Virus record (IMG/VR): IMGVR_UViG_3300021957_000128
Coordinates: 1 to 36,909 of that record
Strand: one strand, 5' to 3'
DNA: 36,909 bases
Source of the DNA: a virus
A program made the translations under genes and the position numbers. The first letter of the stretch is position 1. Every line of letters starts with the position of its first letter. Below, in pieces: positions 1 to 36,909 of the stretch. Under the pieces are notes generated by a model. That model saw nothing but the letters and a program-made list of their open reading frames with translations, ran no database searches and was not told the origin of the DNA.

Positions 1-2
1 TA

Positions 3-644
3 CTTCCACCCATTACGGAAAACATAAACCAGTGGGCCGAGAATATGCGGCGCTACTTGGGCCGTGCTTTGGATCAGCTGGGGTTCAAGGAAACGTATTC
101 GTCGGCTTCCGAGAATGGCGTTTTGCTATGGGATAACGTCAACGGGTATCCCGTGGTTTCCAAGAACGGCGAGTGGCGTCAGGTTGTTCTTGAGGATGGC
201 CACGCTGATTTTATGAAAACGGCTGACGTCGTGCCGGTAGCAGCAAACACAGCCTACAAGCTGACTTACGATGCTCCCACCGGCAATGACGGAATAACAC
301 AAGGCACGCCAGCTTCAAGGATTGTTTTCGAGGAAGCTGGCCAATACGTCATATCGTTCTCCGCGCAAATATCATCAACGTCTGCCAGCACGGTTCACTT
401 CTACTTCTGGCCAAGCGTGAACGGAACAAATGTTGCCGACAGCGCTATGACAACGGCGCTTCACCAAAACAACGCCACGGTTGTCACGTCGCGCACTCAG
501 ATATTCACGCTTGCAGCCGGTGATTACTTGGAAGTGAATTACATGATCGACAACACAAGCGGCTTCCTAAATTACACCGCAGCATCTTCGCCTGTGCCAG
601 CGATCCCAGCGTCAACCTTAGCGATCACGAGGCTTCATGGATAA
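3..644 (+). CDS. Tail-tip / receptor-binding protein, allele A (5' partial)
   Basis: The reading frame is open from the window edge. Comparison with the second copy at 35545 shows that 17 codons and part of an eighteenth lie before the internal ATG at 45, and about four codons are cut off. The first ~50 residues after ATG 45 (MRRYLGRALDQLGF...) are nearly identical to the other copy. The remainder is a beta-rich domain with GTPASR, EAGQY, STSASTV and LAAGDYLEV motifs, like C1q/TNF-type jelly-roll heads of phage fibres. It lies directly after the nozzle gene in the wrapped map, so a distal tail or receptor-binding role is likely. Function is inferred from fold-like motifs and context only. Confidence 0.75.
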   Translation, partial: LPPITENINQWAENMRRYLGRALDQLGFKETYSSASENGVLLWDNVNGYPVVSKNGEWRQVVLEDGHADFMKTADVVPVAANTAYKLTYDAPTGNDGITQGTPASRIVFEEAGQYVISFSAQISSTSASTVHFYFWPSVNGTNVADSAMTTALHQNNATVVTSRTQIFTLAAGDYLEVNYMIDNTSGFLNYTAASSPVPAIPASTLAITRLHG

Positions 645-999
645 AGAGCTTGAGAGATGCCGCGATTGGATTGAGGCCGCTTTGGAGTATTCCGGCGGCA
701 CGCATGACTTTATTGATGTGGCAGAGGGTATATACAAAGGCAGCATGCAGCTCTGGCCTACGCCGAGGGGGTGCATAGTTACCGAAATAGTGGTATATCC
801 GAGGAAGAAAGTTTTAAACGTGTTTCTTGGCGGCGGCGAGTTGGATCAGATTTTAGAAATGCATGAAGATGTGGTAGCATGGGCGAAATCGCAAGGATGC
901 TCTGCATTGACTATGACGGGCCGGTTTGGCTGGAAGAAACCACTGAAGGCGCATGGCTGGGAGCCACTGCACGCCTCATATGTGAAGGAGTTTGAATAA
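637..999 (+). CDS. GNAT-like virion-associated protein (T7 gp13-like), copy A
   Basis: 120 aa. The ATG lies inside the end of the tail-tip gene (8 bp overlap). The pattern W-E-A-L near the start, VTEIVVYPRKK (residues ~48-58), GGGELDQI and the C-terminal GC-x5-GRFGWKKPLKAHG resembles the small GNAT-fold proteins found beside ejection-protein genes in podoviruses, of which T7 gp13 is the best known. Such proteins are thought to help assembly or ejection rather than to acetylate. The copy at 36188 differs at only a few residues (for example GWEPL here, GVEPL there). Family placement is by pattern, so the exact role is uncertain. Confidence 0.65.
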   Translation: MDKELERCRDWIEAALEYSGGTHDFIDVAEGIYKGSMQLWPTPRGCIVTEIVVYPRKKVLNVFLGGGELDQILEMHEDVVAWAKSQGCSALTMTGRFGWKKPLKAHGWEPLHASYVKEFE

Positions 1000-2588
1000 T
1001 GTCAGGCGGCAAAGGTGGATCAACAACGTCAAGCGTTGAAATCCCAGAATACATTGAGGAAGCAGCACGCCGCAATTTGGGCAAGGCTGAAGACATTAGC
1101 CAGATTGGGTATGTGCCATATTACGGGCCTGATGTTGCCGCGTTTACGCCATTTCAAGAAGCAGGTTTCCAGCAGACTGCTGACGTTGCGTCTGCGTTTG
1201 GTATGGGGCCGCAGATGTCTAGGTCGGACATCATGGGCGGCATGCCAGCGGCGACAGAGTTTGCGGGCGGTGTGCGTGGATACAGCTCAGCCCCGCTGTA
1301 CCAGCAAGCCGTTGACGAGCTTGCCGCGCAGCGTCCGGCGCAAGCGCAATTCATTGAGAGCTTTTTCATTGATCCCGTAACGGGCCAAGTGGGATCGCGT
1401 GTGCCGACTGAATATGACTATACATCACCCGTTGCACCCGTTGCACCTGTTGATAGCGGTGGTGGTGGCGTTGCTCCGATTGTGGCACCTGTTGCGCCTG
1501 TTGTGCCGGACACAGCGTTAACGCCTACTGAGCTTTCGGACTACGCCACCATAATTGCGGGTGAAGACTACGACCCGCGAACAGACATTTTAACGCCTAA
1601 GCAAAGAGTAGAAGTCGAATCCCCAACTCCAGAAGGAACGGCAGCGAGAATTGCGCAAGAAGATATAGCAATGAATATTCCCTTCCCTGAAACACCTTTC
1701 GAGCCAGACATACCAAGTCAGATGGGTTCAGTTTTGCTGCCTGATGGTTCTTATGACATCAGTAATTGGTATGACGATGGGCCTGTCGAGTATGTGCCGG
1801 ACACAGCGTTAACGCCTACTGAGCTTTCGGACTACGCCACCATAATTGCGGGTGAAGACTACGACCCGCGAACAGACATTTTAACGCCTGAGCAAAGAGT
1901 AGTCGTCGAATCCGCAACTCCGGAAGGAACAGCAGCGAGAATCGCGCAAGAAGATATAGCAATGAATATTGCTTTCCCAGATAAAGTTTTCGCGCCAGAC
2001 ATACCAAGTCAGATGGGTTCAGTTTTGCTGCCTGATGGGTCTTATGACATCAGTAATTGGTATGACGATGGGCCTGTCACTGGGGGCGGCGGTCTACTGT
2101 CTGATATTGGAAGCCTTATCGCTAGTGGCGGCCCTACTATTGCCGGATTAAAGAGTGTTGGTGGCGCATTGGAATCTGCCCTTGGCGCAGCAGAAAGCGG
2201 CATAGCTTCAATGATTGGCGACCCGCGCACATTTGCTCAGCGTGACGCCGATAGGCTGGAGGCGGAAAGGCTCAGAGCCATCGACAGGTCGCAAGAAGAG
2301 AGCGCCGCAGTCGAAGCGCAAAGGGAAGCAGCCAGAACTGAGCAGGAAAAGCTAAAAGTGTCAGACCCAGAGGCGTTTGTCGCTCAGTTTGGCAAGGAAG
2401 GCAAAGCAGACGCCAAGAAGGCTGTTAAGACTGCGCAAAAGTTAGCTGTTGCTCCAAGGCCGCCAAGCCTAACGTCTGATAAGGCAAGAGATTGGATGAA
2501 GTCCAACGTAGGCATCAGCGTGGATAAAAAAGATGCAACTGACCGGATCCGCTCATTGCAGCGGGATTGGGATAGGCAGAACGGATAA
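999..2588 (+). CDS. Internal virion / ejection protein with a tandem internal duplication
   Basis: 529 aa. The ATG overlaps the previous stop by one base. The N-terminal ~110 residues (EIPEYIEEAARRNL, GYVPYYGPDVAAFTPFQEAG) are conserved in the second copy at 36550. A proline/valine-rich linker follows (APVAPV repeats). Then come two successive ~97-residue units, each starting PDTALTPTELSDYATII and ending SYDISNWYDDGPV. Next are a small Gly/Ala-rich, possibly membrane-seeking stretch (LLSDIGSLIASGG...) and a charged alpha-helical C-terminus rich in Glu, Arg and Lys. No enzyme motif is visible. Its place at the head of the ejection-protein run suggests a structural or DNA-ejection protein. Confidence 0.7.
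   Translation: MSGGKGGSTTSSVEIPEYIEEAARRNLGKAEDISQIGYVPYYGPDVAAFTPFQEAGFQQTADVASAFGMGPQMSRSDIMGGMPAATEFAGGVRGYSSAPLYQQAVDELAAQRPAQAQFIESFFIDPVTGQVGSRVPTEYDYTSPVAPVAPVDSGGGGVAPIVAPVAPVVPDTALTPTELSDYATIIAGEDYDPRTDILTPKQRVEVESPTPEGTAARIAQEDIAMNIPFPETPFEPDIPSQMGSVLLPDGSYDISNWYDDGPVEYVPDTALTPTELSDYATIIAGEDYDPRTDILTPEQRVVVESATPEGTAARIAQEDIAMNIAFPDKVFAPDIPSQMGSVLLPDGSYDISNWYDDGPVTGGGGLLSDIGSLIASGGPTIAGLKSVGGALESALGAAESGIASMIGDPRTFAQRDADRLEAERLRAIDRSQEESAAVEAQREAARTEQEKLKVSDPEAFVAQFGKEGKADAKKAVKTAQKLAVAPRPPSLTSDKARDWMKSNVGISVDKKDATDRIRSLQRDWDRQNG
1503..2078 (+). repeat. Two-copy tandem direct repeat, 291-bp period, inside the ejection-protein gene
   Basis: Unit 1 begins GTGCCGGACACAGCG at 1503 and unit 2 begins with the same bases at 1794, a period of 291 bp or exactly 97 codons. 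Similarity continues to GGGCCTGTC at about 2078. The copies are not identical: the middle diverges (CCTGAAACACC against CCAGATAAAGT). The duplication is therefore not brand new, or one unit has recombined with a relative. The in-frame period keeps the protein intact. Confidence 0.92.
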
Positions 2589-23685: not shown

Positions 23686-24177
23686 ATGGCAGGCAAGGCG
23701 TTACGCAAGCGCATATTGACGGAGGTCGCCTCCAACGGCGGCGCAGATTGGCTGTTTGACCAGATCGCGTCTGGCGTCACCGTCGCCGAGTTGGCACGCC
23801 AATACGGCTGCACGCGCAGTTATGTTAGCAGGAGCCTGAACAGCGTGCCTGAGTATGCGGCTGCGCTTGGCAAGGCTCGCGGCGAGGCTGCGGATGCGCT
23901 TGTGGAGCAGGGCTTGGAGATGGTTGACGGGTTGAGCGGCGCCAGCAGCCCGACGGAGATTGCCGCCACGCGCGAGAAGGTGCAGTGGCGCAAGTTCATG
24001 GCTGGCTCGATGAATCAGGAGCGCTACGGCACGCGCCCGCAGAGCAACGTCACGCTTTCCATTGGGGATTTGCACTTGGACGCGCTGCGCAAGTTTAGCG
24101 CCGACATGAAGCGCGTGAACAGCGACGCCGAGGCGGCCACGATTGACGCTGAATATGTGGAGGTGTCGGATGATTAA
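23686..24177 (+). CDS. terS: Terminase small subunit
   Basis: 163 aa, ATG after a perfect AAGGAGAA site. A helix-turn-helix lies at residues ~25-55 (IASGVTVAELARQYGCTRSYVSRSL), followed by a helical oligomerisation-like part (EAADALVEQGLEMVDGL, EIAATREKVQWRKFMAGSM) and an acidic C-terminus (YVEVSDD). The arrangement is that of small terminases, which recognise the packaging site and feed DNA to the large subunit encoded at 24934. The inverted-repeat block just upstream may be its binding site. Confidence 0.8.
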   Translation: MAGKALRKRILTEVASNGGADWLFDQIASGVTVAELARQYGCTRSYVSRSLNSVPEYAAALGKARGEAADALVEQGLEMVDGLSGASSPTEIAATREKVQWRKFMAGSMNQERYGTRPQSNVTLSIGDLHLDALRKFSADMKRVNSDAEAATIDAEYVEVSDD

Positions 24178-24937
24178 ATTGATGCACGGCGATTGTTTGG
24201 ATTGCATGGGTGAAATGCCCGATGGCTCGGTCGATCTGACAGTGACCAGCCCGCCATACGACAACCTTCGCACCTACAACGGCAACAACGAGCAGTGGGG
24301 CGAGCATGTTTGGCGTGATGTCATTTCTAGCCTGCATCGCGTTACAGCAGATGGTGGCGTTGTCGTCTGGGTTGTTGGTGATGCCACCATCAAGGGCAGT
24401 GAGACGGGAACATCGTTCAAGCAGGCGTTGTGGGCTAAGGAATGTGGGTTCAATCTACACGATACGATGATTTGGTCTAAGCCCACATTCTCTGCTGTTG
24501 GCGCTCTAAAAACAAGATATGCGTCAGTTTTTGAGTATATGTTTGTATTCAGCAAGGGCAGGCCAAAATCATTCAACCCTATAAAAGACAGAAAAAACAA
24601 ATCATTTGGGCAGATAGTAAAAAGTCCAACTATTAGAATGCCAGATGGATCAACCAGAAAAAACAAGTATAATAAAATTAAAGAATTTGGCCAAAGGTTT
24701 AATATTTGGGAGTGTGCAACAGTATCGCAGAAGGGTTCCAATATTCACCCAGCGCCATTTCCAGAATATCTAGCGCGGGATCACATTATTTCGTGGTCGA
24801 ATGAGGGCGACACAGTGCTTGACCCCTTCATGGGGAGTGGCACTACTGGTGTGGCCGCTAAGAGTCTTGGCCGCCGCTTTATCGGCATTGAGCTGGACGA
24901 CACCTATTTCAAGATAACGGAGGATCGGATTAAATGA
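24170..24937 (+). CDS. DNA methyltransferase (beta-class, TSPPY)
   Basis: 255 aa. I start at the ATG 24170, with GGAGGTGTCGG upstream. An upstream ATG in frame (24143) lies deeper in the small-terminase gene. Catalytic TSPPY is at residue ~26. The SAM-binding motif DPFMGSGTTG is near residue 218, followed by GRRFIGIEL. This order is that of beta-class amino-methyltransferases (N4-cytosine or N6-adenine). The middle third, ~24500-24760, is far more AT-rich than both ends, suggesting a swapped recognition domain. No restriction partner is nearby, so it probably protects the phage DNA. It separates the two terminase genes. Confidence 0.87.
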   Translation: MIKLMHGDCLDCMGEMPDGSVDLTVTSPPYDNLRTYNGNNEQWGEHVWRDVISSLHRVTADGGVVVWVVGDATIKGSETGTSFKQALWAKECGFNLHDTMIWSKPTFSAVGALKTRYASVFEYMFVFSKGRPKSFNPIKDRKNKSFGQIVKSPTIRMPDGSTRKNKYNKIKEFGQRFNIWECATVSQKGSNIHPAPFPEYLARDHIISWSNEGDTVLDPFMGSGTTGVAAKSLGRRFIGIELDDTYFKITEDRIK

Positions 24938-27683: not shown

Positions 27684-29221
27684 TGGCGACCGCTGAAGAG
27701 TTAAGACGCCTACGCGAAGAGCAGAGCATCTTTTCTGCGCTGTATGATATGGCCCGACAGCAGCGCAGCGAGCTGGCTGCGGAAGGCCGCCGCCCCGTGC
27801 TTGGCGGGCTGCTGTCGAAAGAGCCAGTGTACGGCACCGACACGCTGCGATATGAAGGCATTGGCAACATGCTTGCGGGGCTGCTTTCGCCCGCCGCCAA
27901 AGCCGTTGACGCGCCTATCTCCGCATATCGCGGCACGATCCCGCAGGAAGACATGATAAGCGAAGCGCTTGGCACGGCGGGGCTGGTTAGCGCAGGATCT
28001 CTTGCGGCTTCAGGTCGCGGAGCTTTGGAATATGACCCTACAACGACACGCATTTTTGCTGGCAAGCGAGCCGCTGCCAGAACAGGTGACCATCGTCGAT
28101 CTGCTACTGCAGAAGCTGAAAGTTTGCTTGAGCAAGGATTTAAGAATAGAGAAGTTTATGAGCGTACTGGCGTATTTAGAGGCGCGGATGGGAAGTTGCG
28201 CTTTGAGATAGACGATAGCGCTGCAAGCGTTTTAAAAGCCCCTTCACCTAATACAGCCATGCGATTAGAGGACTACTTAACCCATCCAGAGCTTTACGAG
28301 TTGTATCCATCAATGCGTGGGATGCCTGTTGATTTCAAGCAGCCTAAAGATATGGATGGTGCCGGTGGAACATTCTCACCGTCTAACCAAAGAATTTCAT
28401 TGGCGATGAATGACCCAGAGAAAATGCGGTCTATCTTGCTGCACGAAGCTCAACATGCGGTGCAAAATCGTGAAGGTTTTAGCGGCGGCTCAAGCCCTAC
28501 TGATGATTACTCAAAAACGCAGGCTAAAGAATTTTCTGACAATTTATTTTCCTCATCAGACGCCAAAAACATGCGGTATCAATATGACTCGTTCAACAAC
28601 CAATACGATCAGATTAAGCCTTTGTATCAGGTTGAATACATTGATAAATTAAACAGCCTTTCAAGAAAGGCGATTGAGGGAAGGGCTAAACCCGCAGAAG
28701 TGACGCGCCTTCAAGATTGGTATAAGTACGGTAATAAAATTGTAGATAATTTAGGCCCAATGCCTAAGCGCTCTGGGGTTGCCCGTGACAATTGGATTGC
28801 ATCAGCTTCTGCTCAATTGCGTGATTTTAGATTGTCTGAAATGACCGATTTTGAAAAAGATTTGTATAATGCTGCTCGCCGTAATTTTGACACACCCAAA
28901 GATGTTAAGAACGCAATAAAACGCATTGAGCGTAAAATTGAAAAACACAGAGCTGGGGCGTTTGGCTTTAGGGAATTGGTAAATAGAGCAAGGGAGGTTC
29001 AAAGTTTAAACGCAATTGACGCTTATTTGCGTGAGGCCGGAGAGGTTGAAGCGCGTAATGTTCAAGCAAGAGCCAACCCTGACAACCCAAAAGGCTTTCC
29101 TCTGGATACAGCAGAATTTTCACCAAATCAGCAAATTATAAGCAGCTTGCGGGCTGGTCAAAACTTAGTAGATGTTTCGTCTCAAGGGCGAAAACCTATT
29201 GGCAGAGGATTGTTAGACTAA
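27683..29221 (+). CDS. Polyvalent protein with HEAQH metallopeptidase-like domain
   Basis: 512 aa. The N-terminal ~120 residues are charged and Ala-rich. From residue ~125, FAGKRAAARTGDHRRS, VYERTGVFRGADGKLRFEIDDSA and SPSNQRISLAMN, then ILLHEAQHAVQNREGF (H254, E255, H258), form a zinc-metallopeptidase-like segment of the LPD23 type seen in phage polyvalent proteins. It is probably delivered into the host or acts in virion maturation. The remainder is helical. By hand count GC falls from 65% (27721-27840) to 38% (28561-28680), so the C-terminal part looks grafted. Confidence 0.68.
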   Translation: MATAEELRRLREEQSIFSALYDMARQQRSELAAEGRRPVLGGLLSKEPVYGTDTLRYEGIGNMLAGLLSPAAKAVDAPISAYRGTIPQEDMISEALGTAGLVSAGSLAASGRGALEYDPTTTRIFAGKRAAARTGDHRRSATAEAESLLEQGFKNREVYERTGVFRGADGKLRFEIDDSAASVLKAPSPNTAMRLEDYLTHPELYELYPSMRGMPVDFKQPKDMDGAGGTFSPSNQRISLAMNDPEKMRSILLHEAQHAVQNREGFSGGSSPTDDYSKTQAKEFSDNLFSSSDAKNMRYQYDSFNNQYDQIKPLYQVEYIDKLNSLSRKAIEGRAKPAEVTRLQDWYKYGNKIVDNLGPMPKRSGVARDNWIASASAQLRDFRLSEMTDFEKDLYNAARRNFDTPKDVKNAIKRIERKIEKHRAGAFGFRELVNRAREVQSLNAIDAYLREAGEVEARNVQARANPDNPKGFPLDTAEFSPNQQIISSLRAGQNLVDVSSQGRKPIGRGLLD

Positions 29222-29841
29222 TGGCTATTTCAACATACACGGATCTAAAGACGTCAGTAGCCAGCTGGCTAAACCGCGATGATCTGACGTCTGTCATCCC
29301 TGATTTTATTTCGCTGGCAGAGGCTGGCATCAATCGTGACTTGCGGCATTACAAGATGATCGAGCGCGCAGATGCCACGCTTGATAGCAGATACGTGCAG
29401 ATGCCTACGGATTGGATGGAGACTGTCAGGTTCAGCATCACGTCCGGCAACACGTATCGCCTTGAGCTGGTTTCGCGTGATGACATGCTTGAGTATCGGC
29501 AGAAGACAGCGGATGCGTCTGGCCGCCCACGGTTTTACGCAAACATTGGCGATACGATTGAGGTGTTCCCGACGCCTGATGCTGACTACACGATGCAGCT
29601 GCAATATTACGCTAAGACGCCCGCGCTGAGCGATAGCAACGCATCCAACTGGCTGCTGCTGGACGCGCCAGACGTTTACCTATATGGCACGCTTATTCAG
29701 TCGGCACCGTATTTGCAGGATGACGCCCGCACGCAGACTTGGGCTGCGCTTTACGCGGCGGCGTTGCAGTCGCTGCAAAAGGCGTCCGATGACACGCGAT
29801 TTGCTGGTTCCGGCCTTAGAATGCGCGTTACTAGCTACTGA
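29221..29841 (+). CDS. Tail adaptor / head-completion protein (SU10 adaptor-like)
   Basis: 206 aa, ATG overlapping the previous stop by one base. The start YTDLKTSVASWLNRDDLTSV, then IPDFISLAEAGINRDLR, and later FPTPDADYTMQLQYYAKTP and LYGTLIQSAPYLQDD match the phage adaptor family (T7 gp11-type function). It links the portal ring to the nozzle. Together with the SU10-type capsid, the P22-type portal and the gp10-like nozzle, this defines a short-tailed virion. Confidence 0.85.
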   Translation: MAISTYTDLKTSVASWLNRDDLTSVIPDFISLAEAGINRDLRHYKMIERADATLDSRYVQMPTDWMETVRFSITSGNTYRLELVSRDDMLEYRQKTADASGRPRFYANIGDTIEVFPTPDADYTMQLQYYAKTPALSDSNASNWLLLDAPDVYLYGTLIQSAPYLQDDARTQTWAALYAAALQSLQKASDDTRFAGSGLRMRVTSY

Positions 29842-29889
29842 TCTGAAAATGGTGTATGGTTCACCTAGATATATCTAACGGAGAAATCC

Positions 29890-30276
29890 ATGTCTTTAAC
29901 AAATGCATTTGAGACAAGTACGCTGAAGTATTTGTTGACCACCGACAGCGTAACGCGCCCTACAGCTTGGTACGTTGGCCTGTTTACATCTGACCCGACA
30001 GATACCGGCGCTGCTGGCACAGAGGTTTCTGGTAACGGCTACACCCGCAAGGTTGCTGCATTCACAGTAACTAACGATACCGCATCAAACTCTGCGTCAA
30101 TTGAGTTTCCTGCGGCGAGCGGCGGCAACTGGGGAACGGTGGGCTGGATCGGCATCATGGACGCGTCTTCTGGTGGCAATATGATTATCCACTCTGCTTT
30201 GACAACCGCCAAAGCGATTAACGACGGCGATGTGTTCCGCATTCCTACGGGCGATCTTGACGTAACGGCGAGCTAA
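29890..30276 (+). CDS. Small structural protein (conserved in phage tails)
   Basis: 128 aa, ATG after CGGAGAAATCC. WYVGLFTSDPTDTGAAGTEV and GNGYTRKVAAFT, with GTVGWIGIMD, is a pattern common in phage structural proteins. It is beta-rich. It follows the adaptor in a short operon of tail genes and could be a minor tail or fibre-base component. I cannot be more exact. A small palindrome AGATATATCT lies in the gap before it. Confidence 0.65.
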   Translation: MSLTNAFETSTLKYLLTTDSVTRPTAWYVGLFTSDPTDTGAAGTEVSGNGYTRKVAAFTVTNDTASNSASIEFPAASGGNWGTVGWIGIMDASSGGNMIIHSALTTAKAINDGDVFRIPTGDLDVTAS

Positions 30277-30938
30277 TGGGCTTGCGCTCAACATATAACT
30301 CAGGGGTTTATGACTCTGGGTTATACGGCGAGCCTGAGACAACGCAGGGGGCTGCTTCTGCGTCTATTGGCGTTTCCGCGTCTGCGTCTGCCGTTACGAT
30401 TGTAGACGGCGCAGCGTCCACAGCTATTGCATTTGCCGCATCGCAGCCAACTGGCGTGCGCGTTGTTGATGCGTCTGCAAGCATAAGCCTTGGCGGCATT
30501 GTTTCCGTCAGCGCGGTAAAATACGAGGTTATTCCCGGATTTAGACCGGGCTACGGGCTTAACACTTACGGATCGTATATTTACGGCAAAAACATTAGCA
30601 TTGAAGAAGGTAGCGCCTCTGCGAATATTGCTTTTGCCGCGAGCGTTTCCGGCGGTGTTACGCGGAATGTTTCTGCTTCCACTGCGATTGCATTTGCTGC
30701 AACCGCAAACGGCGTTTACGATGTGGTGGCCTCAACTACCGCCGCTATTTCAATTTCGTCCGATATAGGGTATATCAGAATAAGGACTTTTGCGGTTTCC
30801 GACAATATTGCGTTTACGCCTGTCGTGAATGCTAGGTATAAGTGGGAAGACGCACCCGACCCGACAACCATATGGACAGAAGCATCTGATCCATCAACGA
30901 CTTGGACAGAAGCAGACTATTTAGAGAGGGCCGCATAA
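30276..30938 (+). CDS. Repetitive tail protein
   Basis: 220 aa, ATG overlapping the previous stop. Low complexity with Ala/Ser/Val repeats (ASASIGVSAS, STAIAFAAS, SASTAIAFAAT) separated by beta-like segments, and a GFRPGYGLNTYGSYIYGKN part. The C-terminus repeats DP-TTIWTEASDPSTTWTEAD. It is probably a tail-fibre-like or spike-associated protein. No enzyme motif. Confidence 0.6.
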   Translation: MGLRSTYNSGVYDSGLYGEPETTQGAASASIGVSASASAVTIVDGAASTAIAFAASQPTGVRVVDASASISLGGIVSVSAVKYEVIPGFRPGYGLNTYGSYIYGKNISIEEGSASANIAFAASVSGGVTRNVSASTAIAFAATANGVYDVVASTTAAISISSDIGYIRIRTFAVSDNIAFTPVVNARYKWEDAPDPTTIWTEASDPSTTWTEADYLERAA

Positions 30939-31594
30939 TGCCTACGACAACGACGAATTATTCTTGGAATAAGCCAACCGTAGGCGGCGACGAAGACGCT
31001 TGGGGTGGCTTTCTAAACGGTAACTGGGATGCTCTTGATACGTTGCTTGGCGGCGTTACAAACACTGAGTTTGAAATCCTTGACGGCGCAACTGTCACGA
31101 CAGCAGAGCTTAATCTGCTAGACGGTGTTACAGCGACAACCGCAGAGCTTAATTACGTTGACGGTGTAACCTCTGCAATCCAAACGCAGCTTAATGCCAA
31201 GGTGGGCGCAACCTACACAGGCGATGTAGACATCACTGGCGAGCTAATCGTTGATAGCTACAACGAAACCTACGGCGCTGTTACATCAAGCTCCAACGCC
31301 ACAACGGTAAATTGTGAGGCTGGTAACGCATTCAGCCACACGCTGACAGAAAACACCACGTTCACGTTTAGTAACCCGCCAGCCAGCGGCACGGCGTATA
31401 GCTTCAGTATTGAGATCATCCAAGATGGCTCTGCGTCTGGCTTCACGGTTACTTGGCCTGCGGCTGTTGATTGGCCTGCGGCTACGGCACCAACTCTGAC
31501 AGCAACAGCATCTGCGAAAGATGTGTTTGTATTCTACACCCGTGACGGTGGCACGAACTGGTACGGATTTACGGCTGGGCAGGCACTAGCATAA
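30938..31594 (+). CDS. Tail fibre protein with DGVTATTAELN repeats
   Basis: 218 aa from an ATG that overlaps the previous stop by one base. The upstream in-frame ATG (30902) lies inside the previous gene and is less likely. A conserved N-terminus (NYSWNKPTVGGDEDAWGG) leads to repeats TTAELNLLDGV, TTAELNYVDGV, which are typical of marine phage fibres, then a beta-rich C-terminal domain (AGNAFSHTLTENTTFTFSNPP). It is probably distal or side-fibre material. Confidence 0.78.
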   Translation: MPTTTTNYSWNKPTVGGDEDAWGGFLNGNWDALDTLLGGVTNTEFEILDGATVTTAELNLLDGVTATTAELNYVDGVTSAIQTQLNAKVGATYTGDVDITGELIVDSYNETYGAVTSSSNATTVNCEAGNAFSHTLTENTTFTFSNPPASGTAYSFSIEIIQDGSASGFTVTWPAAVDWPAATAPTLTATASAKDVFVFYTRDGGTNWYGFTAGQALA

Positions 31595-31606
31595 GGGGCG
31601 CACAAT

Positions 31607-33529
31607 ATGGCGACGAAAAAGAAGCTATTACAAGCTGCGGCTGGTCAAGCTGGTGGTGCTGCCCCTGATGTAGATGATGTGTTCAGCACTTATTTGTATG
31701 AGGGTAATGGCTCAACTCAAACTATTACTAATAATGTAGACCTGTCAGGTGAAGGCGGGTTAGTTTGGATTAAGTCAAGAGCGCACACATATCCTCATGC
31801 ATTGTTTGATACAGAAAGAGGCGCTACAAAACAACTAAAGTCTAATAGCAGCGCTGCAGAAAGAACTTTATCTACATTACTTACATCCTTTAATAATAAT
31901 GGGTTTTCTCTAGGGAGTGATAGTGATGTAAATGGAACATACAGCACTGCAAAATACGCCTCTTGGACATTCCGCAAAGCCCCTAAGTTTTTTGATGTGG
32001 TGACTTATACGGGGGATGGGACAAATAATAGGCAGATCGCACATGATCTTGATGCAACTGTCGGCATGGTTGTTGTAAAAAGACTTGATTCAACAGGAGA
32101 CTTTTTTACGTGGCACAGAACTTTTAGTAACAACCAAAATGTTGTGCTTAATGATAATTTTGCCGTAACTACTCTACAAAACTATTTAGTTACGGCAAGC
32201 AGCACAACATTTACTGTTGGTAGTAATTCTGATGTAAATAGAAGTGGCAGTTCCTACGTAGCCTACCTATTCGCACACAACGATGGTGACGGTGAGTTCG
32301 GCCCTGATGGTTCGGACATTATTAAGTGTGGTAGTTATACTGGTAATGGTTCTGATGATGGCCCTGTAATTGACTTAGGGTTTGAGCCTCAATGGTTAAT
32401 GATTAAAAATACAACTGATGCAGATAGTTGGTGGATGTTTGATACCATGAGAGGAATGGCTGTTGACGCTATTGACCCAGCACTTTGGGCAGACGGTAGT
32501 AATGCAGAAGTGAGTACTGGTGAACCGGGCATTTCACCTACACCCACAGGATTCAAAGTAACTACTAATCAGGGTTTTTTAAATAATAACAATAGTAACC
32601 TAATCTACATATCCATACGCCGTGGCCCACTTGCGCCGCCTACGGCTGGGACTGAGGTGTTTGGGATAGATAACAACACAGGTCAAACTGGAATGACGAC
32701 AGGCGTTGTCACAGATTTTGGCTTCGCCGGTCAGCGATCTGGTACTGATAAGTATTACGTTGGCACGAGGCTTTTGCAAGGTTCATACTTAAATTTTAAT
32801 AGCACTGCATCTGAAAGCTCTTCTAGCGCTTTTAGTTTTGACCAAATGGATGGCTTTTTTAGTGCGGCAGGAAGTTGGAACGGATACATTGGCTACGGCT
32901 GGAAACGTGCGCCTAACTACATGGATGTCGTGGCATATTCTGGAAATGGAACAGGTACTCGTACCTTGAGCCATAACCTAGAAGCAACACCCGAAATGAT
33001 ATGGCTTAAAAAGAGAAGCACCACGAGTTCTTGGTATGTTTATCATAAAGATTTGAGTGATCCCAATAACGGTTATCTCTCCTTAGAAAACAGCAGTGCA
33101 AGGTCGGCATCTAGTGGGATATGGGGAACAGGACCAACAAGCACAAACTTTCAAGCTGTATTAAATACAAGCGGTCAAACTCACATAGCCTACCTATTCG
33201 CCTCACTAGATGGCATATCCAAGGTGGGAAGTTATACTGGAAACGGCTCATTCCAGACTATTGATTGCGGCTTTTCTGCGGGTAGCCGCTTTGTGCTTAT
33301 AAAGCGAACTGACGCAACAGGTGACTGGTATGTTTGGGATAGTGAACGTGGGATAACTCAAGCAGCCGATCCGTACTTAGAATTAAATACAACGGCGGCT
33401 GAAACTACGGGAAACAAGAACTATTTGTATCCAGCAAATTCTGGCTTTGGCGTTCAAGAAATTAACGGAACAAATAACCCAAACATCAACGTATCAGGTG
33501 CAACGTACATTTTCTACGCAATAGCATAA
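31607..33529 (+). CDS. Large tail fibre / receptor-binding protein with repeats (DUF7483-like)
   Basis: 640 aa. Four to five copies of a ~100-residue beta-sandwich-like unit each carry a Y(T/S)GNG(S/T) motif (for example VVTYTGDG, KCGSYTGNGS, VVAYSGNG, KVGSYTGNGS) and a W(L/V/Y)-x-K-x segment. This resembles DUF7483-type fibre proteins of marine phages. By hand count GC is ~33% at 31681-31740, well below the neighbours, so the gene looks recently acquired, as expected for host-range determinants. Confidence 0.78.
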   Translation: MATKKKLLQAAAGQAGGAAPDVDDVFSTYLYEGNGSTQTITNNVDLSGEGGLVWIKSRAHTYPHALFDTERGATKQLKSNSSAAERTLSTLLTSFNNNGFSLGSDSDVNGTYSTAKYASWTFRKAPKFFDVVTYTGDGTNNRQIAHDLDATVGMVVVKRLDSTGDFFTWHRTFSNNQNVVLNDNFAVTTLQNYLVTASSTTFTVGSNSDVNRSGSSYVAYLFAHNDGDGEFGPDGSDIIKCGSYTGNGSDDGPVIDLGFEPQWLMIKNTTDADSWWMFDTMRGMAVDAIDPALWADGSNAEVSTGEPGISPTPTGFKVTTNQGFLNNNNSNLIYISIRRGPLAPPTAGTEVFGIDNNTGQTGMTTGVVTDFGFAGQRSGTDKYYVGTRLLQGSYLNFNSTASESSSSAFSFDQMDGFFSAAGSWNGYIGYGWKRAPNYMDVVAYSGNGTGTRTLSHNLEATPEMIWLKKRSTTSSWYVYHKDLSDPNNGYLSLENSSARSASSGIWGTGPTSTNFQAVLNTSGQTHIAYLFASLDGISKVGSYTGNGSFQTIDCGFSAGSRFVLIKRTDATGDWYVWDSERGITQAADPYLELNTTAAETTGNKNYLYPANSGFGVQEINGTNNPNINVSGATYIFYAIA

Positions 33530-33556
33530 CTCAACTGACAACGGAGACTTTCAATC

Positions 33557-34054
33557 ATGTCAGAATATCGTAATAGAACAACAGGCGAAGTAAAAACGCA
33601 GGGGCAATGGCGAGCCGCTAACCCCAACATGTCTTTGCCTCGCACATGGAAAGCTGCAACGCTAGATGCACTAAACTTAGACCCAGTGCTACGCAGCCCA
33701 GCGGCTACCACAGGCGCATATCAAAACTCTGTGCGTGATGGCGTTGAGCAAGATGCCAATGGCAACTGGGTAGAGAAGTACGTTGCCCGTGACATGTTCG
33801 CTGACACCACAGAGGATGGCGTTACCACCACCAAAGCAGAGCATGAGGCGGCTTATCAGGCAACACTTGATGCAGCGGTGGCAGAGCGTAATCGCACCAA
33901 GCGTGATGGTTTGCTGGCTGAAACAGATTACTTTGCGCTGACTGATGTAACGATGGATGCGCCGATGACAACCTACCGTCAGGCGCTGCGCGATATTACA
34001 GCCCACGATAACTGGCCCAACTTGGCCGATGATGACTGGCCGACGAAGCCGTAA
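33557..34054 (+). CDS. Tail fibre assembly-type protein
   Basis: 165 aa, ATG 8 bases after GGAGACTTTC. The C-terminal part DGLLAETDYFALTDVTMDAP, then TTYRQALRDITAHDNWPN and WPTKP, is the signature of phage tail-fibre assembly chaperones (Phage_tail_APC-like). The N-terminus has a conserved-looking TTGEVKTQGQWRAANPNMS. It would help fold the fibre encoded just before it. Confidence 0.82.
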   Translation: MSEYRNRTTGEVKTQGQWRAANPNMSLPRTWKAATLDALNLDPVLRSPAATTGAYQNSVRDGVEQDANGNWVEKYVARDMFADTTEDGVTTTKAEHEAAYQATLDAAVAERNRTKRDGLLAETDYFALTDVTMDAPMTTYRQALRDITAHDNWPNLADDDWPTKP

Positions 34055-34069: not shown

Positions 34070-35548
34070 ATGCCGTTGATCCCACTTAATATCCCAGCGG
34101 GCCAATACAGAAACGGTACCGAATATCAGTCTCAGGGCCGCTGGCGCGATGCAAACCTGATCCGCTGGCACGAAGGCGCGCTGCGCCCCGTTGGCGGCTG
34201 GCGTCAGCGCGGAAGCGTTGACTTGGACGGCGTGACCCGCACGATGATTGCGTGGGAGGGCAACAACGGAGATCGCCGCGTGGCGTTTGGAACGTACAAT
34301 AAGTTGTACGCCATGACGTCAAGCAACACTGTAAGCGAGATCACGCCTGTCGGTTTCACCGCAGGCAGGCAGGATTCCACGTCCTTCACTGGTTATGGCG
34401 GCAATGTTTACGGCAGCAGCCTTTACGGTTTACCCGCAGAAGACACCGGCTCTATTTTGCCAGCGACCACATGGAGCTTGGAAAACTGGGGCGAATACTT
34501 GCTGGCTAACACAGCTGATGACGGCAAGATTTACCAGTGGCAGCTTAACGCTTCAACGCCCGCCGCCGTGCTGTCAAACGCCCCGACAAACTGCTCTGGC
34601 ATGATGGTGACGGAAGAGCGTTTTGTGTTTGCGTTTGGCGCAGGCGGCAACCCCCGCAAGGTTGCATGGTCTGACCGTGAAGATAACAATACTTGGACAC
34701 CGGCAGCGACAAACGAAGCCGGTGACATTGAGATACAAACCAACGGCACAATCCTCAAAGGATTACGCACACGCGGGCAGTCGTTGATCCTTACAGATCA
34801 AGACGCGCACACGGCCACATATAGTGGCCCGCCGTTTGTGTATGGCTTTGAGCGCGTTGGTACTTCGTGCGGCTTGATTGCGTCCAACGCAGCTGCGTCG
34901 ATTGACGAGGGCGTGGTGTGGATGGGCCAGCGCTCGTTCTTCATTTACGCTGGTGGATCTGTGCGAGATTTGCCGTGCGAGGTTGCTGACTATGTTTTCA
35001 GCGACATGAACAATGACCAGCGGTCAAAGGTTCACGCCGTTGTGAACAGCCGGTTTAACGAAATCTGGTGGTTTTATCCAAGCGCAAGCGCAACAGAATG
35101 CGACAGCTACGTTGCGTTTGATTACGCTGAAAATATTTGGACAACCGGCACGATTGACCGCACAGCTGGTGTGGATCGAGGCGTGTTTCGTCAGCCCTTC
35201 TGGATTGCCGCTGATGGCATTTTGTACGAGCAAGAAGTTGGCTTTGACTACGGTGGCCAAGCGCCGTTTGCCGAAACAGGCCCGATTGCGCTGGGCGTTG
35301 GTGAAAACGTAATGGCGGTGCGCGGCATGATCCCAGACGAAAACACGCTGGGTGACGTGAATGCCACATTTAAGACGCGTTTCTATCCAACGGATACGGA
35401 GCGAGACTACGGGCCGTATAGCATGGCCAACCCGACAAGCCTGCGATTTACCGGACGTCAGGTAAGAATGCGGGTCACAGGCAATACGTCATCTGATTGG
35501 CGCGTCGGCATCATGCGGCTTGACGCAGTGGCTGGCGGGCGCAGATGA
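34070..35548 (+). CDS. Tail nozzle / DNA stabilisation protein (P22 gp10-like)
   Basis: 492 aa, ATG after GGGGGAGAAGG. The N-terminus (PLNIPAGQYRNGTEYQSQGRWRDANLIRWHEG) and the core (NGTILKGLRTRGQSLILTDQDAHTAT, SCGLIASNAAASIDEGVVWMG) match the stabilisation/nozzle family. The protein forms the tail tube end beneath the adaptor. The ATG of the tail-tip gene overlaps its stop by 4 bp. Confidence 0.87.
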   Translation: MPLIPLNIPAGQYRNGTEYQSQGRWRDANLIRWHEGALRPVGGWRQRGSVDLDGVTRTMIAWEGNNGDRRVAFGTYNKLYAMTSSNTVSEITPVGFTAGRQDSTSFTGYGGNVYGSSLYGLPAEDTGSILPATTWSLENWGEYLLANTADDGKIYQWQLNASTPAAVLSNAPTNCSGMMVTEERFVFAFGAGGNPRKVAWSDREDNNTWTPAATNEAGDIEIQTNGTILKGLRTRGQSLILTDQDAHTATYSGPPFVYGFERVGTSCGLIASNAAASIDEGVVWMGQRSFFIYAGGSVRDLPCEVADYVFSDMNNDQRSKVHAVVNSRFNEIWWFYPSASATECDSYVAFDYAENIWTTGTIDRTAGVDRGVFRQPFWIAADGILYEQEVGFDYGGQAPFAETGPIALGVGENVMAVRGMIPDENTLGDVNATFKTRFYPTDTERDYGPYSMANPTSLRFTGRQVRMRVTGNTSSDWRVGIMRLDAVAGGRR

Positions 35549-36195
35549 GCCGAATACTTCCACCCATTACGGAAAACATAAACCAGTGGGCCGAGAATAT
35601 GCGGCGCTACTTGGGCCGTGCTTTGGATCAGCTGGGGTTCAAGGAAACGTATTCGTCGGCTTCCGAGAATGGCGTTTTGCTGTGGGATAACGTCAACGGA
35701 TATCCCGTTGTTTCCAAAAACGGCGAGTGGCGTCAGGTTGTGCTTGAGGATGGGCATTACGATGGCACCATCAGCACAGATCAGACAGCGGCATTAATAA
35801 ATACGGCATACGCGCTGACGTTTACTCAGGATTTAGCTGAAGGAATAACGAGCGGCACGCCAGCTTCGCGTTTGGTCGTTGACGAGGCTGGGCAATATTC
35901 TGTGACATATTCAATGCAAATGGCCTCAACATCTGCTTCAACTGTTAGGATGTGGTTTTGGGTTAGAATTAATGGCACAGATATTCCCAAATCTGCAATG
36001 GAAAACACGTTGCACCAAAATGGATCAACTCTTGTCGTTACAAAGTCATCGATACTGCAACTTTCCGCAGGAGATTACATAGAGGTCATGTGGGCGACTA
36101 ACAGCACAAACGGTTATTTGGAAGCAGTGGCCGCAACTGCATTCGCGCCCGCTACGCCGTCAGCAACTATATCTATGGTGAGGCTTCATGGATAA
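35545..36195 (+). CDS. Tail-tip / receptor-binding protein, allele B (complete)
   Basis: 216 aa from the true start MSRILPPITENINQW, which overlaps the nozzle stop by 4 bp. The first ~67 residues equal allele A (3-644). Beyond that the sequences diverge, keeping the frame of the motifs GTPASR, DEAGQY, STSASTV and AGDYIEV. This is a C1q/TNF-like jelly roll and hence a strong receptor-binding candidate. The two alleles end with the same VRLHG/TRLHG tail. Confidence 0.8.
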   Translation: MSRILPPITENINQWAENMRRYLGRALDQLGFKETYSSASENGVLLWDNVNGYPVVSKNGEWRQVVLEDGHYDGTISTDQTAALINTAYALTFTQDLAEGITSGTPASRLVVDEAGQYSVTYSMQMASTSASTVRMWFWVRINGTDIPKSAMENTLHQNGSTLVVTKSSILQLSAGDYIEVMWATNSTNGYLEAVAATAFAPATPSATISMVRLHG

Positions 36196-36550
36196 AGAGC
36201 TTGAGAGATGCCGCGATTGGATTGAGGCCGCTTTGGAGTATTCCGGCGGCACGCATGACTTCATTGATGTGGCAGAAAGTATATACAAAGGCAGCATGCA
36301 GCTCTGGCCTACGCCGAGGGGGTGCATAGTGACCGAAATAGTGGTATATCCGAGAAAGAAAGTTTTAAACGTGTTTCTTGGCGGCGGCGAGTTGGATCAG
36401 ATTTTAGAAATGCATGAAGATGTGATAGCATGGGCGAAATCGCAAGGATGCTCTGCATTGACTATGACGGGCCGGTTTGGCTGGAAGAAACCACTGAAGG
36501 CGCATGGCGTGGAGCCACTGCACGCCTCATATGTGAAGGAGTTTGAATAA
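36188..36550 (+). CDS. GNAT-like virion-associated protein, copy B
   Basis: 120 aa, nearly the same as the copy at 637. Differences seen are few (for example VAES/VAEG, DVIAW/DVVAW, GVEPL/GWEPL). It overlaps the tail-tip gene by 8 bp just like copy A. See 637-999 for the family argument. Most base changes are synonymous or conservative, so both copies look functional. Confidence 0.65.
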   Translation: MDKELERCRDWIEAALEYSGGTHDFIDVAESIYKGSMQLWPTPRGCIVTEIVVYPRKKVLNVFLGGGELDQILEMHEDVIAWAKSQGCSALTMTGRFGWKKPLKAHGVEPLHASYVKEFE

Positions 36551-36909
36551 TGGCAGGCGGCGGATCAACAACGTCAAGCGTTGAAATTCCAGAATACATT
36601 GAGGAAGCAGCACGCCGCAATTTGGCCAAGGCTGAAGACATTAGCCAGATTGGGTATGTGCCATATTACGGGCCTGATGTTGCCGCGTTTACGCCATTCC
36701 AAGAAGCAGGATTTCAGCAGACTGCTGACGTTGCGTCTGCGTTTGGTGTGGGGCCGCAGATGTCTCAGACGGACATTATGGGCGGCATGCCAGCGCCGAC
36801 AGAGTTTGCTGGCGGTGTGCGTGGATACAGCTCAGCCCCGCTGTACCAGCAAGCCGTTGACGAGCTTGCCGCGCAGCGTCCGGCGCAAGCGCAATTCATT
36901 GAGAGCTTT
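36550..36909 (+). CDS. Ejection protein, copy B (3' partial at window end)
   Basis: 120 codons are present before the window ends. It starts MAGGGSTTSSVEIPEYIEEA, against MSGGKGGSTTSSV in copy A (two codons fewer). Substitutions in copy B against A include RNLGKA/RNLAKA, GMG/GVG and SRSD/SQTD. The stop codon and the 97-residue repeat region fall outside the window. Confidence 0.75.
   Translation, partial: MAGGGSTTSSVEIPEYIEEAARRNLAKAEDISQIGYVPYYGPDVAAFTPFQEAGFQQTADVASAFGVGPQMSQTDIMGGMPAPTEFAGGVRGYSSAPLYQQAVDELAAQRPAQAQFIESF

Follow-up and report, generated by a model that had tools for sequence, protein, structure and literature searches.

The question raised by this locus is why a phage contig should begin and end in two versions of the same sequence. 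The window, by which we mean the whole stretch of DNA analysed, is a complete IMG/VR record (G000) of 36,909 bases, and the record is classed as "linear" because its ends are not identical. The repetition could reflect two fibre modules carried by one genome, or one locus met twice on a ring whose strains differ there. As argued below, the ends are very probably one single-copy tail-fibre locus read from two co-existing strains with different fibre tips, through a ring-shaped assembly and a tip-swapping module, as far as the sequences allow us to judge.

The imperfect overlap and the genes it contains

Alignment confirmed that the ends repeat directly with indels of 3 and 6 bases and one diverged segment, as the preliminary description had proposed, with borders nearly the same: positions 1-1364 correspond to 35555-36909 in direct orientation (1364 versus 1355 bases). 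Both flanks of the overlap match in this orientation, the left one (1-199 versus 35555-35753) at 97.5% and the right one (629-1364 versus 36180-36909) at 96.3%, and the flanks are 97.09% identical overall, with 97.1% nucleotide identity to the left copy over 36188-36909. Between them, at the codon after "VVLEDGH", identity changes sharply, and the stretch 204-628 versus 35758-36179 retains 49-61% nucleotide identity per 100 bases and 46% amino acid identity. Two gaps, one of 3 bases inside this diverged stretch and one of 6 bases at about 36561, account for the nine-base length difference of the ends. The end-to-end alignment scored 1435 bits, whereas the maximum of 50 dinucleotide shuffles of the left end against the window was 36.5 bits, which excludes chance as the source of the match.

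The overlap covers a short tail-fibre gene (216-217 aa), a 120-aa gene, and the start of a 529-aa open reading frame, all on the plus strand, as are the other features of this locus given below. In the fibre protein, about 70 aa at the N-terminus form a conserved anchor, and the C-terminal part is a tip of about 145 aa. In the right-end copy (haplotype B), the alignment of the ends and the reading frames place a complete anchor at 35545-35757, followed by the type B tip (35758-36195), the 120-aa gene (36188-36550, an open reading frame with 97.1% nucleotide identity to the left copy), and the 5' part of the 529-aa frame (36550-36909), which alignments show to be cut by the contig end at about codon 120. 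In the left-end copy (haplotype A), the anchor (1-203) is truncated at its 5' end, without the initial codons of the gene, and by alignment to 35555-35757 begins at about codon 4; the full-length A-type fibre genes of contigs L002, L004, and L007 start with ATGAGCCGAATACTTCC. The type A tip (204-643), the 120-aa gene (637-999), and the whole 529-aa frame (999-2588) follow. The 120-aa gene is GNAT/acetyltransferase-like (phrog_22172, E 2.8e-17; its phage relatives matched by tblastn are annotated as acetyltransferase). Directly upstream of the fibre gene lies a 492-aa virion structural protein gene (phrog_3287; 34070-35548), which we used as a backbone marker.

The 529-aa frame has conserved ends and a hypervariable central segment, located at approximately 1407-2150 by alignment with same-species contigs, among which at least three alternative sequences of it occur. 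Inside this segment lies an in-frame tandem duplication of a 291-bp unit (1502-2078), of which L001/L003 have one unit and L008/L015 two. The right end of the window corresponds to position 1364, about 40 bases short of this second variable segment, so that the contig ends at or beside two forks.

The remaining genes are those of a tailed phage: the portal, capsid, and adaptor proteins are of SU10 type, and the small terminase is Sf6-like. An N6/N4-type DNA methylase gene (24173-24937) stands between the small-terminase-like gene and TerL, and since these two abut in G001-G003, the methylase looks like a flexible insertion. The G+C content is 45-50% in 28001-34000 and about 55-60% over most of the window. 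A search for the host through the large terminase gave one match to a MAG contig (uncultured Opitutae, 55% identity), which is too weak to name a host.

Copy number of the locus and the ring-shaped map

A genuine divergent duplication was the alternative put forward in the preliminary description; a linear phage genome would then have two fibre modules, one near each end. The state of the genes would agree with it, as the reading frames are open throughout both copies and intact except at the contig cuts, and the 120-aa genes differ by 4 synonymous and 3 non-synonymous codons, which gives no sign of decay. Nevertheless, copy number in the relatives speaks against it. The 120-aa gene was single-copy in 14 of 15 related records searched whole and the upstream 492-aa structural gene in 13 of 13 other such records, giving 27 of 28 overall, and the sole record with two copies (G004) carries them at its two ends, 36.6 kb apart, a distance of one genome length. 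The junctions speak against it as well. Same-species contigs with tip A (L002, L004, L007) have upstream of it the same sequence that precedes 35555 in the window, and contigs with tip B (L008, L012, L015) run beyond the right end of the window, from GAGAGCTTT on into TTCATTGA, as the left copy does. Such read-through in six contigs indicates that real molecules extend beyond both window ends, and genes are cut at both of them. Finally, independent same-species contigs are on average 97.15% identical (range 95.7-100, 45 pairs), compared with 97.09% between the window ends, so that by sequence comparison the divergence of the ends is that expected of two strains. We consequently consider the duplication very unlikely, and it found no support in either the single-copy state of the locus or the junctions.

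The relatives also provide evidence for a ring-shaped map. In two of them, G018 and G020, the two ends are exact repeats of 127 bp; these lie at different points of the map, the units measure 36,046 and 35,938 bp, respectively, and the shared genes are in the same order. The length of 127 bp is the size of an assembler word, and these repeats are uninformative on permutation versus fixed terminal repeats, because a de Bruijn graph would show a ring in either case. Imperfect overlaps were found in three further records: G004 has one in the fibre region, about 2.3 kb of which is identical before the sequences diverge, while G016 and G017 have theirs in the primase region, at 93% and 97%. Because two of the three lie elsewhere on the map, imperfect overlaps are a habit of the assemblies of this group rather than a property of the fibre locus, and G016 (L163-L165) and G017 (L172-L173), too, are probably complete ring genomes that have been classed as linear.

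The best-supported reading of the window is thus a unit of about 35,554 bp whose ends would represent two haplotypes. The joining of two strains around a unit of about 35.55 kb had been suggested from the sequence of the window itself, and the suggestion is supported by the single copy of the locus, the read-through, a divergence at the between-strain level, the occurrence of both tips in the same backbone, and the recurrence of imperfect overlaps. That the whole window, beyond its ends, is a population consensus is plausible.

A fibre tip in discrete types and its exchange between backbones

The two tips, which share 46% of their amino acids, are both C1q/BclA_C-like. Type A has a weak BclA_C match (E 0.0015), and type B a better one (E 1.7e-7) that remains sub-threshold at 31.6 bits, below the Pfam gathering score of 38; BclA_C matches were also obtained in 10 of 35 relatives. 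The best phage relatives of the tip are annotated as cerebellin-1 or C1q-like, and it probably adopts a C1q/TNF-type jelly roll. Bacillus YdhK was considered as a structural match, but the profile matches among solved structures were weak and not usable. Between same-species contigs, the tip as the putative recognition domain is 55% identical at the nucleotide level, compared with 94-98% for the backbone, and its position, predicted fold, and variability suggest that it most likely binds the host receptor. In L075 (1558-1911), L146 (3485-3826), and L155 (7473-7826), a much shorter, unrelated-looking tip with a PASSVG-AGD... motif replaces the C1q-like one and stands behind the same kind of fibre anchor.

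We surveyed tips and backbones in 96 related loci together with the left end of the window, defining backbone clusters by at least 90% nucleotide identity of the 492-aa gene. Since similarity to the window was the criterion for choosing these loci, the shares of A and B among them are no estimates of frequency. Both tip types occurred in five backbone clusters, and among the loci closest to the window they were found separately in the same backbone; tip A is 92-100% identical at the amino acid level in many relatives. The presence of each type in at least five backbones indicates that the tip is an exchanged cassette. One case is L071, whose tip has 97% nucleotide identity to tip B of the window, against 63% for the 492-aa genes. 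Along this alignment, identity climbs steeply within the anchor, at about 35690-35750, and tails off across the 529-aa frame. Purifying selection alone would not keep the silent sites of shared tips so alike. Tips also combine freely with the central segments of the 529-aa frame, as in same-species contigs tip A occurs with types 1, 2, and 3 and tip B with types 1 and 2. The simplest mechanism of tip exchange that we can infer is homologous recombination, both within the anchor that the phages share and within the gene downstream. The 120-aa GNAT-like gene (637-999) is 92-100% identical in the first 80 loci, which were chosen for that similarity and have widely different backbones; it apparently moves together with the tip. 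We also looked for same-sample A and B contigs as proof of co-existence in one species, but those found belong to different backbones and so are no such proof; no further contig from the sample of the window was found with one of the haplotypes on its own.

The discrete tip types and their sharp borders would also suit switching within one genome, by which a single phage would produce A and B through inversion, retroelement mutagenesis, or cassette exchange. The pattern of substitution argues otherwise, as differences occur throughout the tip instead of being concentrated at adenine-derived sites. A scan of window proteins, which covered part of the small reading frames, recognised no silent tip copy, reverse transcriptase, or recombinase, and self-comparison revealed no further tip copy or inverted tip pair in the window. 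A diversity-generating retroelement would bring a reverse transcriptase, which was absent from the scanned proteins, and a template copy of the tip, which was absent from the window. We regard such switching as the least likely of the explanations considered here.

Proposed origin of the two ends and comparison with known systems

In the explanation that we prefer, two strains with different tips, the window would follow the ring-shaped assembly of a phage genome, about 35,554 bp long, for one full turn and a further 1.36 kb, its left end read from a strain with tip A and its right end from a strain with tip B. The assembler may have started near the fork made by the two tip types and followed the ring until it reached the locus again, this time on the other haplotype, to end shortly before the second variable segment. 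This behaviour is guessed, because the window ends share no exact k-mer overlap. That the two strains lived within one sample is the reading best supported by the assembled sequence. The locus itself would be a host-recognition module with a conserved anchor, a swappable C1q/BclA-like tip, and a 120-aa gene tending to travel along, in which homologous recombination in the anchor and the downstream gene would swap tips between phages.

Terminal-redundancy heterozygotes, which are known from T4, would offer another origin for the two ends. If virions package more than one genome length, a single molecule could have allele A at one end and allele B at the other; the overlap of 1.36 kb (3.8% of the unit) is of a size possible for headful packaging, the small-terminase-like gene matches the Sf6 family, and the circular maps are compatible with this mode. 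However, a bulk assembly is a population consensus, and if the ends of its molecules were permuted, the break would not be fixed at a single locus. Moreover, A and B occur alone in most relatives, and two strains would be needed even so. We hold this origin to be improbable, to about the same degree as the duplication; if it were true, mixed infection would yield particles heterozygous for the receptor-binding tip.

With the two-strain explanation, the record is to be used as a near-complete ring genome of about 35.55 kb, and its ends should not be read as a duplication. More generally, imperfect end overlaps, which are missed by circularity tests based on exact repeats, can mark both completeness and a polymorphic locus. 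The receptor-binding tip comes in a few discrete types common to phage lineages with only about 60% identity in the neighbouring genes, so that tip exchange can be tested directly.

Hypervariable C1q-type receptor-binding genes in environmental phages and assembly breaks at forks have already been published, and the window is a new example of both effects, with a clear cassette at the level of a domain. In the hypervariable regions of marine phages, C1q-like and tail-fibre genes rank among the most common, and the variability of these metaviromic islands is concentrated in the recognition domain, with a conserved N-terminus (Mizuno, Ghai and Rodriguez-Valera 2014, PMC3909814). Those islands were seen as gaps in read recruitment, whereas the window shows both alleles in full, one at each end of a single contig. 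Cryoconite phages have C1q-like receptor-binding variants with 54-69% nucleotide identity in core genomes that are 96-99% identical, several of them in one metagenome, which was attributed to recombination (Bellas et al. 2020, PMC7468147). The phages here are different ones, each of their two tip types is met again in at least five backbones, and what is exchanged is a domain, as opposed to the whole gene in the cryoconite phages. A receptor-binding module common to otherwise distant phages is also known from Alteromonas phages A5 and V22 (PMC10579305); their fibres are larger, come with a dedicated chaperone, and were tested experimentally. Regarding assembly, de Bruijn assemblers break at multiple paths (COBRA, PMC10914622), and strain heterogeneity hampers virome assembly, in which chimeric contigs occur (Roux et al. 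2017, PMC5610896). Both of these studies treat exact k-mer end overlaps, whereas the ends of the window overlap imperfectly over 1.36 kb. Among named phages, Octadecabacter Antarctic DB virus 2 (MW805364) and Sinorhizobium phage phiM5 (MF074189) have a similar order of structural, 120-aa-related, tailspike-like, and hydrolase/internal virion genes, which in DB virus 2 also includes the portal gene. Their fibre genes differ from that of the window, and their relatives of the 120-aa gene have 53% (DB virus 2) and 31% (phiM5) amino acid identity to it. In both phages the locus is single-copy, as in the relatives of the window, and DB virus 2 is recorded as circular.
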